Assembly: GCA_900473685.1 (NCBI GenBank)
Contig: UCNE01000006.1
Span: forward strand, 1-64,000
DNA length: 64,000 nt
Origin: Hyphomicrobiales bacterium
GTDB taxonomy: Bacteria > Pseudomonadota > Alphaproteobacteria > Rhizobiales > Rhizobiaceae
Reading direction: 5' to 3'
Program-made: the position numbers and the translations under genes
Notes under the pieces: generated by a model
Told to the model about the DNA's origin: nothing
What the model saw: only the letters and a program-made list of their open reading frames with translations
Database searches by the model: none
Shown here: piece by piece, positions 2,924-7,300 of the stretch
How positions within the stretch are numbered: the first letter of the stretch is position 1
Layout: every line of letters begins with the position of its first letter

Positions 2924-4120
2924 TTAAACCGGCGTTTGCTGGCGGCGAAGTCGCGCCAGCGCAGCCAAGACGACTGTAGCCATGAGCGAAGAATAGGCCA
3001 CAAGCGGCCACACCGTATCGCCCCGCAAAGCGATGACGGCCAGCGTTCCGAAAATGCCGGTGATCAGGCTCTGGATGCAGAAATAGAAGGCGACCGCCGA
3101 TCCGGCGATATCGTCAAAGCCTTTCAATGCACCATTGGCGGCCACGGAAACGGCAAGGACGATGCCGATCACCATGATCCACATCGGCAGGATGAACGTC
3201 AGAAACGACGCAGTGCCGAAGATCTGGCCGATACTCAGCAGCGCCGCCCCCAACAACAGCAACATCATTCCTCTGGCGAGACTGCCGGAAATGCCCCACA
3301 TCGCCACGAATTTCCGGGTAAAGCGCGTGGTGACGATCATGACGCCAGCGGCGGTCGCAAAAGCCAGGCTGAAGGTCATCTCCGAAAAGCCCGCTCGATC
3401 GATCAGGACACGCGGCGCCGTGGAGAAGAACACGAAAAACGTGCCCATTGCCGCGCTGAACCCGAGCGTATAGGTCCAGAACGCAAAGCTCCTGAAGATG
3501 GGCAGGATCGATCGGCGCGAGTTTGCCGCAAATACCGGACGTGTTTCGGGCCATCGCAGCAGGGCATTGACGAGTGCCAGAATGGTGACGGCACCGAGAG
3601 CCGCAAAAACTGCCCGCCAGCCCCACACATCGGCGATCAAAGCACCCGCAATCGGGCCAAGAGCCGGCGCGAAAGATAGCATGGCGCTGAAAAGACCATA
3701 AATGACGGTGCTTTCCGGACGATCCGCATAGACATCGCGAACGGTCGCAAACGTCGCCACCAGTGCTGCAGACGCGCCGATGGCCTGAAGAAACCGAAAG
3801 ACGATGAACGGGGCCGCAGTCGAAGACACGGCAAGGCAGAACGAGGTTGCAGCAAACAGCAGCGCACCGCCAATCAGCACCGGCCGCCGGCCGATACGGT
3901 CGGAGACCGGCCCGAAGATGATCTGCCCAAGCCCGAGCATGATCATGTAGAGGCTCAGGCTCAGCTGAATGACCGCCGGGCTGGTGTTGAGGATTCCGGG
4001 CATTGCAGGAACGACCGGCAGATAGATGTCCATCGCCAGCGAGGCGAGAATATCGAAAGGGGCCATCAGCAGCAGTGTTGCTGGCAGGGAATAGGCCCAG
4101 ATACGAGGTATTATAGGCAT
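2924..4120 (-). CDS. MFS drug exporter, CmlA/FloR-like (chloramphenicol efflux)
   Basis: Inner-membrane drug:proton antiporter of 398 residues with twelve predicted membrane segments (DHA12, Bcr/CflA/CmlA branch). The N-terminus (WAYSLPATLLLMAPFDILAS, then MDIYLPVVPAMP) follows the CmlA/FloR pattern residue by residue as I recall it, as do the loop GPVSDRIGRRPVLIGG, the segment VATFATVRDVYA and the GTFFVFFSTAP segment. Expected role: export of chloramphenicol or related phenicols. The start at 4120 is chosen because it gives the same N-terminal length as CmlA and sits 10 bases after GAGCGG. A frame open to 4210 would translate the leader hairpins. The gene follows metH on the same strand, separated by a regulated leader described separately. 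Phenicol specificity is inferred. Confidence 0.85.
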   Translation of the reverse strand: MPIIPRIWAYSLPATLLLMAPFDILASLAMDIYLPVVPAMPGILNTSPAVIQLSLSLYMIMLGLGQIIFGPVSDRIGRRPVLIGGALLFAATSFCLAVSSTAAPFIVFRFLQAIGASAALVATFATVRDVYADRPESTVIYGLFSAMLSFAPALGPIAGALIADVWGWRAVFAALGAVTILALVNALLRWPETRPVFAANSRRSILPIFRSFAFWTYTLGFSAAMGTFFVFFSTAPRVLIDRAGFSEMTFSLAFATAAGVMIVTTRFTRKFVAMWGISGSLARGMMLLLLGAALLSIGQIFGTASFLTFILPMWIMVIGIVLAVSVAANGALKGFDDIAGSAVAFYFCIQSLITGIFGTLAVIALRGDTVWPLVAYSSLMATVVLAALARLRRQQTPV

Positions 4121-4130
4121 GGGAAAACAT

Positions 4131-4226
4131 CCGCTCAAATGGGGTGCATTTGGCGGCGTCTGCCTGTCAGCTTCAGCTGGAATTGGTTCGACAGACCGCC
4201 GCAACAACATGAAAAAGTTGTTGCGG
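4131..4226 (-). promoter_or_regulatory. Translation attenuator upstream of the CmlA-like exporter
   Basis: Reading the minus-strand RNA, four pairing segments follow the leader peptide. Segment 1 CCGCAACAAC (4226-4217) pairs perfectly with segment 2 GTTGTTGCGG (4208-4199). Segment 2 extended, GCGGCGGTCTG (4202-4192), can instead pair with segment 3 CAGACGCCGC (4162-4153), with one bulged G. Segment 3 extended, CCGCCAAATG (4156-4147), pairs with segment 4 CATTTGAGCGG (4141-4131), with one bulged A. That last stem hides GAGCGG, the ribosome binding site of the exporter. Pairings 1:2 plus 3:4 would be OFF. A ribosome stalled on the leader would release 2:3 and expose the site. Confidence 0.75.
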
Positions 4227-4227
4227 C

Positions 4228-4257
4228 TTACTTATCTGCGGATTTTGCGGTCCCCAT
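4228..4257 (-). CDS. Leader peptide MGTAKSADK of the CmlA-like gene
   Basis: Nine-codon frame, ATG to TAA, ending one base before the first attenuator arm. The peptide MGTAKSADK matches, at six of nine positions, the leader MSTSKNADK that I recall for the inducible cmlA of Tn1696. Its Lys-Asn-Ala-Asp part is the segment implicated in drug-dependent ribosome stalling. The position, size and sequence together make chance unlikely. No strong Shine-Dalgarno is visible, only AGAG about nine bases upstream. Confidence 0.75.
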   Translation of the reverse strand: MGTAKSADK

Positions 4258-4292
4258 GCCGATGCTCTAATATCCGGAATTCGATGCACGCC

Positions 4293-4320
4293 CTATATCA
4301 AACCGGGAGCGGGCAAACAA
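4293..4320 (-). promoter_or_regulatory. Candidate promoter for the exporter leader
   Basis: On the minus strand TTGTTT (4320-4315) and ATATAG (4298-4293) are separated by 16 bases. This would place transcription start about 30 bases before the leader ATG. It matches the sigma-70 pattern moderately. No terminator is evident between metH and this point, so read-through from metH is also possible. Confidence 0.35.
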
Positions 4321-4342
4321 TGCTGCCGAAAGGGCGAAAACG

Positions 4343-7300
4343 TTACTCCGCCGCCTCGACCCTCGGGGCCGGGACATAATTCAGGATCGGCCCGAGCCAG
4401 CGCTCGACTTCGTTGACCGGCATATCCTTGCGTTCGGCATAGTCTTCGACCTGGTCGCGCTCGACCTTGGCAACGCCGAAATAATAGGATTCCGGATGGG
4501 CGATGTAGATGCCGGAGACGGAGGAGCCTGGCCACATGGCAAAGCTTTCCGTCAACGTCACACCGATTTCCTCTTCCGCCTTCAGCAGATCGAACAGCGT
4601 TGCCTTTTCCGTGTGATCTGGCTGCGCCGGGTAACCGGGTGCAGGCCGGATACCGGCATAGGGTTCGCCGGCCAGTTCGCTTGGATCGAAGGCCTCATCA
4701 GCCGCATAGCCCCAGAGTTCCTTGCGGACATATTCGTGCATGCGTTCGGCAAAGGCTTCGGCAAACCGGTCAGCGAGCGCTTTCACCATGATCGACGAGT
4801 AATCGTCATTGGCCCGCTCGAAACGTTCGGCAATCGCCACCTCCTCGATACCGGCGGTAACGACGAAGCCGCCGAGATAATCCTGTTTGCCGCTTTCAAC
4901 CGGAGCAACGAAATCCGACAAGGCCACATTCGGGCGGCCGTCGCGCTTGGCCATCTGCTGGCGCAGGGTGTAGAAAGTCGCGCGTTCCTTTGCCCGGCTT
5001 TCGTCGGTGAACAGGCGGATATCGTCGCCCACCACGCCCGCAGGCCAGAAGCCGACAACCGCCTTCGGCGCAAACCATTTTTCCGCAATGACCTTGGCCA
5101 GCATCGCCTGCGCATCGGCAAACAGTGCACGCGCCGCTTCGCCCTGACGTTCGTCGTCGAGGATTTTCGGATAGACGCCCTTCAACTCCCAGGTCTGGAA
5201 GAACGGGGTCCAGTCGATATACTCGGCCAGTTCCGCAAGATCCCAGTTCTGGAAGACCCGCGTACCAAGGAAAGACGGTGTCTTCGGCAGATAGGCATCC
5301 CAGTCGACTTTCTGGGCATTGGCGCGGGCCTTCGCCAGCGGCAGGCGCTGCTTTTCCAGCTCGTTGCGGGCATGCGCGTCCGCCACCTTCTTGTACTCGG
5401 CCTTGACGGTATCGATGTAGCCGCCTTTCATTTCCGGCGACAGCAGGCTGGAGACAACGCCGACGGCGCGGCTGGCGTCCGTGACATAGATCGCCTGGCC
5501 CTGATTGTAGCGCGGATGAATCTTGACTGCAGTGTGGACACGGCTGGTGGTCGCGCCGCCGATCAGCAGCGGAATATCAAAACCCTCGCGTTCCATTTCA
5601 GCCGCCACATGCGCCATTTCATCCAGCGACGGCGTGATCAGGCCGGAAAGGCCGATGATATCGACGTTCTTTTCGCGGGCGATCTCGAGGATTTTTGCGG
5701 CGGGCACCATGACGCCGAGGTCGATGATTTCATAGTCGTTGCAGGCAAGCACGACGCCGACGATATTCTTGCCGATATCGTGCACATCGCCCTTCACCGT
5801 CGCCATCAGCACCTTGCCGGCGCTCTTGCGCTCGCCAAGGCCGCCACCGGCCAGTCGCTCGGCTTCCATGTAGGGCAGCAGAATGGCAACCGCCTGCTTC
5901 ATCACGCGGGCGGATTTCACCACCTGCGGCAGAAACATTTTTCCTGCGCCGAAAAGATCGCCGACGACATTCATGCCGGCCATCAGCGGCCCTTCGATGA
6001 CATGCAACGGCCGCTCGGCATTCTGACGGGCTTCCTCGGTATCGGCCTCGATGAACTCGGTGATGCCGTTGACCAGCGCATGTTCAAGCCGCTTCTCGAC
6101 GGCCCATTCGCGCCATTTCAGGTCCCGTTCCTTCGCTTCCTTGCCGGCAGTTCCCTTGAAGCGTTCGGCGAGTTCCAGCATGCGCTCGGTCGAATCGGCG
6201 CGGCGGTTGAGGACGACATCCTCGCAGGCTTCCTTCAATTCGGGCTCGATCGATTCATAAACCGCCAGCTGACCGGCATTGACGATACCCATGTCCATGC
6301 CTGCCTGAATGGCGTGGTAGAGGAACACGGCGTGCATCGCTTCGCGCACCGGCTCGTTGCCGCGGAAAGAGAAGGACAGGTTGGAGACGCCGCCGGAAAT
6401 ATGCACATGCGGCAGGGTATCGATGATCTCGCGTGTCGCCTCGATGAAGTCGACACCGTAATTGTTGTGCTCCTCGATACCGGTCGCGACAGCAAAGACG
6501 TTCGGATCGAAGACGATATCTTCCGGCGCAAAATTGGCCTGTTCAGTGAGCAGCTTGTAGGCGCGGGTGCAAATCTCGACCTTGCGGGCCTGCGTATCCG
6601 CCTGCCCCTGCTCATCGAAAGCCATGACCACGACGGCGGCGCCATAGGCGCGGCAAAGCCGGGCGTGATGCAGAAAGGCTTCCTCGCCTTCCTTCATCGA
6701 GATCGAGTTGACCAGCGGCTTGCCCTGCACGCATTTCAGGCCCGCCTCGATGATCTCCCATTTTGATGAGTCGATCATCACCGGAACGCGGGCGATATCC
6801 GGCTCGGCGGCGATCAGATTGAGAAACTCGACCATCGCCTGCTTCGAATCGATCAGGCCTTCGTCCATGTTGATGTCGATGATCTGGGCGCCATTGGCCA
6901 CCTGATCGCGGGCAACATCGAGCGCTGCGGCATAGTCACCGGCGGTGATCAGCTTGCGGAACTTGGCCGAGCCGGTGACGTTGGTGCGTTCGCCGACATT
7001 GACGAACGGAATGTCCTTGGTCAGCGTGAACGGCTCGAGGCCGGATAGCTTCATCAGCCGTGGCACGTCGGGGATTTCACGGGGCGCATGTTTTGCGACG
7101 GCCCGTGCGATCGCCCGGATATGCGCGGGCGTCGAGCCGCAGCAGCCGCCGACGATATTGACCAGGCCTTCGCGGGCAAAGCCTTCGATCTGGGCCGCCA
7201 TTTCGTCCGGCGTTTCATCATACTGGCCAAACTCGTTGGGCAGGCCGGCATTCGGATAGGCGCAGACGAATGTATCGGCAACGCTGGAAATCTCGGCCAG

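Follow-up and report, generated by a model that had tools for sequence, protein, structure and literature searches.

Chloramphenicol resistance genes carried on plasmids can be preceded by leader regions that regulate their translation, and the question raised here is whether a rhizobial exporter gene has such a regulator of its own. The DNA sampled (the window) comprises 64,000 nucleotides of contig UCNE01000006.1 from assembly GCA_900473685.1, and both the exporter gene and its leader region lie on the minus strand. The relevant parts, namely a leader open reading frame (ORF), four RNA segments, and the exporter start at 4120, span 4268-4118 (Table 1). This element is very probably a cmlA-type translational attenuator acting on the exporter, in which a ribosome stall, a switch in pairing, and induction are predicted from its component parts and from the way these are conserved and co-vary.

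Table 1. Positions in the window of the exporter gene, its upstream neighbor, and the parts of the leader region
Feature	Position	Strand	Remarks
CmlA/FloR-family chloramphenicol exporter	2924..4120	-	398 aa, ATG at 4120; NF033134 match, start conserved
Segment 4, CATTTG-A-GCGG	4131..4141	-	Overlaps exporter Shine-Dalgarno GAGCGGA (4136-4130)
Segment 3	4147..4164	-	4164-4153 pairs with segment 2; 4156-4147 pairs with segment 4
Segment 2	4190..4208	-	4208-4198 pairs with segment 1; 4202-4190 pairs with segment 3
Segment 1, GCCGCAACAAC	4217..4227	-	Begins at the base right after the leader stop
Leader ORF MGTAKSADK, stop TAA	4228..4257	-	Read in sequence; present at 140 of 142 related loci
Asp8 codon GAT, predicted to occupy the P site when the ribosome stalls	4234..4236	-	Predicted from residue counts and published chloramphenicol and ErmBL rules
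Leader Shine-Dalgarno-like AGAG	4265..4268	-	Read in sequence; GGAG in L043, L046, and L050
Promoter-like pair TTGTTT (4320-4315) and GATATA (4299-4294)	4294..4320	-	Read in sequence; 15-base spacer
Upstream gene, 1,257 aa	4343..8116	-	

The exporter passed the NCBIfam CmlA/FloR equivalog model NF033134 with 629 bits (cutoff, 450). Its scores lay under the cutoffs of the FloR model NF000219 (588.7 bits; cutoff, 700) and the CmlA model NF000509 (387.7 bits; cutoff, 875). The protein is 67 to 68% identical to FloR and FloR2 and 50% identical to CmlA1. The original prediction called the gene CmlA-like; with FloR (67%) nearer than CmlA1, "CmlA/FloR family" is the better term. The genome contains a single close copy of the exporter; the next five matches were 28 to 29% identical.

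The upstream gene, which we take to be metH, ends about 90 to 105 bases before the leader at the window's locus (L001) and in L043, L046, and L050. In L044 and L045, its end lies ~1.46 kb before the leader, with another open frame (about 1395-2860) between them. Thus, the nearest relatives share this location, although it is not entirely constant. The gene was not found in the other loci scanned, within flanks of 1.5 to 3 kb or less. Judging from the neighbor gene, we infer that the locus is chromosomal. Downstream of the exporter, at 1958-2449 on the minus strand, is a 163-amino-acid ORF with an N-terminal hydrophobic stretch resembling a signal peptide and a middle rich in Tyr, Arg, and Gly.

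The short leader ORF preceding the exporter has its own ribosome binding site, which in the window is weak. Its codons (4257-4228, minus strand) read ATG GGG ACC GCA AAA TCC GCA GAT AAG TAA. Comparison with the cmlA1 leader MSTSKNADK of plasmid locus L009 bore out the claimed identity of six residues out of nine. The promoter-like pair that had also been proposed is present and resembles those of the five relatives compared (the L050 version is TTGTCT), but a sigma-70 scan, which asks for a spacer of 16 to 18 bases, did not report the TTGTTT/GATATA pair.

The leader peptide, the four segments, and stems 1:2, 2:3, and 3:4 were read directly in the sequence and agree with the original prediction, as do the position of segment 1 (the stop ends at 4228 and the segment starts at 4227) and the pairing of the exporter ribosome binding site. 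Stem 1:2 consists of 11 perfect pairs, and stem 3:4 (4156-4147 with 4141-4131) covers the GCGG of GAGCGGA before ATG 4120. Folding of 4260-4115, proposed earlier as a check, gave -63.9 kcal/mol with a z score of -5.87, and none of 200 shuffles was as stable. In the free fold, stems 1:2 and 3:4 are already accompanied by the TCTGTC:GGCAGA half of 2:3. Thus, only the GCGGCG:CGCCGC half would have to switch. On the plus strand, a T-rich stretch comes after hairpin 1:2 (4198-4227), which there has a terminator-like score.

These parts suggest the following mechanism. In the absence of drug, the ribosome would complete the leader, stem 1:2 would form, and segment 3 would pair with segment 4, hiding the exporter Shine-Dalgarno sequence (SD). 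When chloramphenicol or another drug with a similar context preference is present, the ribosome would stall on the leader, its P site occupied by Asp8 and its A site by Lys9, with Ala7 penultimate, and would cover the first part of segment 1. Zipping of segment 2 onto segment 3 could then extend the half-stem already formed. Stem 3:4 would be lost, and the exporter would be translated.

We then asked how widely the leader and hairpin occur. Among 115 exporter-family loci (the seven distant paralogues L002-L008 were left out), a leader directly precedes the hairpin in 113. A script found 108 of these and, as it demanded a stop directly before the hairpin, their adjacency holds by construction; the other five were found by reading. 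In the floR copies L107 (Flavobacterium) and L122 (Chryseobacterium), the attenuator is missing and the sequence upstream of 3001 is different. With 27 loci added, the leader and hairpin were present in 140 of 142 related loci.

Genome samples gave a similar association. In a sample from the bacterial family of the window, the gene (E ≤ 1e-80) was found in 47 of 297 genomes, and all 47 have the leader and hairpin. A covariance model built from 54 elements, the window's own among them, matched the window with an E value of 1.2e-40 and detected the element in 43 of the 47; the four others (G284, G096, G170, and G230) are diverged and were found by reading. Forty-two of 44 strong matches to the RNA model lay within 25 bases of the gene match. 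In G270, the element is 521 bases from the match and the gene is broken. In G108, a second attenuator (L155:2267-2438, G108:C9) precedes an exporter-gene remnant, and the same genome also holds a copy with the element. The phylum sample contained the gene (E up to 1e-70) in 13 of 398 genomes, all 13 with leader and hairpin, and the order sample yielded 2 of 41. In the class sample, only the window's own genome was found (1 of 385), both by protein profile and by the RNA model with seven candidates scored per genome. Within that genome, the only other match to the model up to an E value of 1 was the same hairpin on the opposite strand. Rfam 15 gave no match to window positions 3900-4500 at the same limit.

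On plasmids, 2,984 of 72,556 records matched the attenuator region at an E value up to 1, and 2,407 of these were from Escherichia, Klebsiella, or Salmonella; individual inspection covered the matches listed. Several elements were unusual. In L034 and L115, segments 2 and 3 are separated by about 60 additional bases, with the pairing logic kept. The leaders of L156-L159 (G284, G096, G170, and G230) are diverged, contain SATR, and lack a stop ahead of the hairpin. The arms of this hairpin differ greatly in sequence in L156, L158, and L159 (GCCGTAAATTT...), where a local hairpin may enclose the SD. Weak RNA-model matches occurred in the gene-less genomes G026, G117, G180, and G276, with best E values of 6.7e-4 to 0.008.

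The leader peptides were compared by counting positions back from the codon before the stop. Since the locus counts include near-identical mobile floR copies and some genomes fetched twice, the 64 distinct leader peptides, 6 to 11 residues long, are the better unit. Position -3 is Ala in 40, Ser in 20, and Thr in 4 of them, accounting for all 64. Position -2 is Asp in 50, Thr in 11, Val in 2, and Arg in 1, and position -1 is Lys or Arg in 59, whereas 12 different residues occur at position -6. The residues at -4, -3, and -1 are each encoded by more than one codon. Ser, Thr, and Ala are also frequent at other leader positions (52 of 64 at -4), so the telling point is that position -3 shows no exception through eight changes on the protein tree, all of them within Ala, Ser, and Thr (outgroup rows L004 and L005 of this earlier tree are one protein entered twice). 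The distance from the motif to segment 1 is one codon, even where that codon is not a stop (L044, L062, and L157-L159), and two bases in L156. The leaders of L044 and L062 have TAC and TAT in place of the stop and read into segment 1, with the stall motif and spacing retained.

These residues match published rules for drug-dependent stalling. According to the available text of the sources, chloramphenicol and linezolid stall ribosomes best with a penultimate Ala and less with Ser or Thr (PMC8987054), and the sequence KNAD in the CmlA leader causes arrest that depends on chloramphenicol (PMC10192921). The ribosome stalled on ErmBL is described as having Asp10 in its P site and Lys11 in its A site, where a basic residue is needed and Arg works three times better (PMC4935803). 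The window leader ends in Ala-Asp-Lys-stop, which is the chloramphenicol stall context.

Conservation of the pairing was examined in 113 elements, reduced to a set of 56 with differences of over 6%. Of these, 54 make up alignment A2, from which L034 and L115 were left out for their long inserts. The exchange, equilibrium, domain, and spacing tests used 51 of the 56; in L040, L041, L055, L064, and L101, no start was found by pattern. In the 54 nonredundant elements, the cells were paired in 99.7% of cases for 1:2 (594 cells), 92.2% for 2:3, and 89.8% for 3:4. Both sides changed at 6 of the 10 pairs of 3:4. For 2:3, 174 of 500 column shuffles reached the native count of pairs changed on both sides, and 3 of 500 reached the covariation score.

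Because a column count misses register shifts, arms were exchanged in silico between elements. In the 51 elements, native 3:4 averaged -10.71 as opposed to -9.64 (standard deviation, 0.19) for exchanged arms (0 of 2,000 exchanges). Stem 2:3 had no clear native advantage in these closer elements (212 of 2,000), since its arms are highly conserved. Against shuffled partners, 2:3 beat 95% in 50 of the 51 elements and 3:4 in only 28. Both stems stood out in 27 divergent elements, which were picked by hand before energies were computed: the native and exchanged values were -19.74 and -17.22 for 2:3 and -11.29 and -9.57 for 3:4 (0 of 5,000 for each). In the G1057 group, the outer half of 2:3 is written in other letters and is still paired. 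Five of the 27 were no better than exchanges for 2:3, namely L010 (mobile floR), L089, L156, L157, and L161. The alignment of leader and arms across homologues, which had also been suggested as a check, revealed conservation with compensatory change, so the outcome named beforehand as refuting the prediction, a lack of such conservation, did not occur.

Folding simulations addressed the predicted switch. In the domain test with 1:2 formed, the SD core paired with segment 3 (over 0.5) in 49 of the 51 elements. With 1:2 open, 2:3 gained at least three pairs in 48, and pairing between the SD and segment 3 fell by >0.3 in 37 and rose by >0.3 in none. In the window, the unpaired fraction of the SD went from 0.20 to 0.85. 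For SD pairing, cmlA1 did not follow the general pattern (0.11 to 0.19). Equilibrium folding of a longer leader weakly supports the modeled switch. The mean unpaired value of the SD went from 0.25 to 0.29 in the 51 elements and from 0.25 to 0.24 in the shuffled control, a shift exceeding that of the control (Wilcoxon P, 0.006), with increases of >0.15 in 7 elements and decreases of >0.05 in 6. Masking by a ribosome raised the value by >0.2 in 12 of 51 at best and changed nothing in cmlA1 or in the mobile floR forms L010 and L011. Given how little the SD moves in equilibrium folds of the longer leader, the switch may be kinetic and cotranscriptional.

The small effect of the mask in most elements would also be expected if stalling raised mRNA stability without freeing the ribosome binding site, so that only hairpin 1:2 mattered. 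RNAalifold, which predicts only 1:2, agrees with such a scheme, although we attribute this outcome to the register of 3:4, which shifts by one base between subgroups of the alignment. The available text of both floR papers (PMC5890775 and PMC8256890) likewise reports a stem that does not overlap the ribosome binding site and a rise of floR mRNA with phenicols. However, such a rise would also be expected if translation protects the message, and neither the co-variation of 3:4, and of 2:3 in the divergent set, nor the pairing of the SD core with segment 3 in 49 of 51 elements fits an effect of 1:2 alone. We consider the stability explanation improbable.

Transcriptional attenuation, with one of the stems acting as a terminator, is less probable still. 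No terminator-like site was found on the minus strand of 4100-4420, at least five T's follow 1:2 in only 1 of 51 elements, and 3:4 overlaps the SD; a sense-strand terminator was therefore rejected, even though the stems are GC rich and at least five T's occur in the eight bases after segment 4 in 16 of 51 elements. There is a slightly slimmer chance again that the element is an inherited relic and the gene constitutive in its own strain, given that the window retains every part intact and that divergent relatives have preserved the pairing. An exporter start at ATG 4210, with the arms as coding sequence, can be rejected almost outright: the frame is open from 4210, but the start corresponding to 4120 is conserved and the stop-to-start distance ignores frame (98, 99, 100, 101 ... 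118, 166, 169 in the 51 elements).

With translational attenuation thus preferred, we turned to its origin. In a careful tree of 65 proteins, for which no root was inferred, mobile floR and floR2 fall in a 24-row clade (support, 100/98) together with element-bearing copies from Rhizobium, Mesorhizobium, Ochrobactrum, and other mostly alphaproteobacterial sources, some of which may themselves be mobile. cmlA1 sits on a long end branch (2.63) and has no firm place. The kinship with mobile genes that had been proposed for this locus therefore stands for floR, but cmlA1 could not be placed. A natural recombinant in Comamonas testosteroni NFYY023 (L071:2845-2892) joins the cmlA1 upstream region and MSTSKNADK to the floR2 arms and gene. 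The same recombinant was seen at L167:1366-1413, likely in the same genome, and in four plasmid records, three from Pseudomonas and one from Brevundimonas, that are 100% identical over the full 186-base query. This recombinant suggests that leaders are interchangeable between members of the family.

On balance, we favor the view that a dedicated phenicol sensor, built on a fixed stall code, originated on chromosomal exporters as an ancestral trait of the family, that mobile floR was lifted together with its sensor from an alphaproteobacterial chromosome, and that the leaders are interchangeable. The code would consist of Ala, Ser, or Thr, then mostly Asp or Thr, then Lys or Arg, followed after about one codon by the RNA arm, and this short signature is offered for recognizing phenicol-sensing leaders. 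The data suggest that floR came with inducible control from environmental bacteria and did not gain it on plasmids. The same predicted switch travels with the plasmid-borne resistance genes floR and cmlA. An inherited attenuator on a rhizobial exporter is a regulator of a familiar type in a less usual location. The open PMC literature, outside which most subscription papers lie, yielded neither an attenuator on chromosomal rhizobial exporters nor a four-segment model for floR.

At the stall, the leaders of ErmBL and cat-86 place Asp in the P site and have a basic A-site residue, as predicted for the present leader. The cat-86 leader is MVKTDK. Their genes and RNA arms are unrelated to those described here, and ErmBL responds to macrolides. 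The cmlA attenuator is the classic case (Stokes and Hall 1991, as described in the available text of PMC8876359). cmlA1 shares with the window a nine-codon leader ending in ADK, a hairpin right after the stop, a stem covering the ribosome binding site, and an exporter of the CmlA/FloR family. In contrast to the window gene, cmlA1 is an integron cassette; the exporters are 50% identical, and the SD-covering stem of cmlA1 has other letters and departs from the domain-test pattern.

The floR attenuator shares the 1:2 hairpin, an exporter 67 to 68% identical, and a leader, MGNSKSADK in L010 and L011, of the same type. It has already been published as putative, and the available text of the two reports describes a single inverted repeat that stops short of the ribosome binding site (PMC5890775 and PMC8256890), leaving open how the leader acts without a hairpin that reaches this site. 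The present analysis describes segments 3 and 4 and tests their co-variation across the family, and both can be aligned in floR too. Thus, the relatives supply the missing stems, and the four-segment model provides the link in a form that is directly testable.
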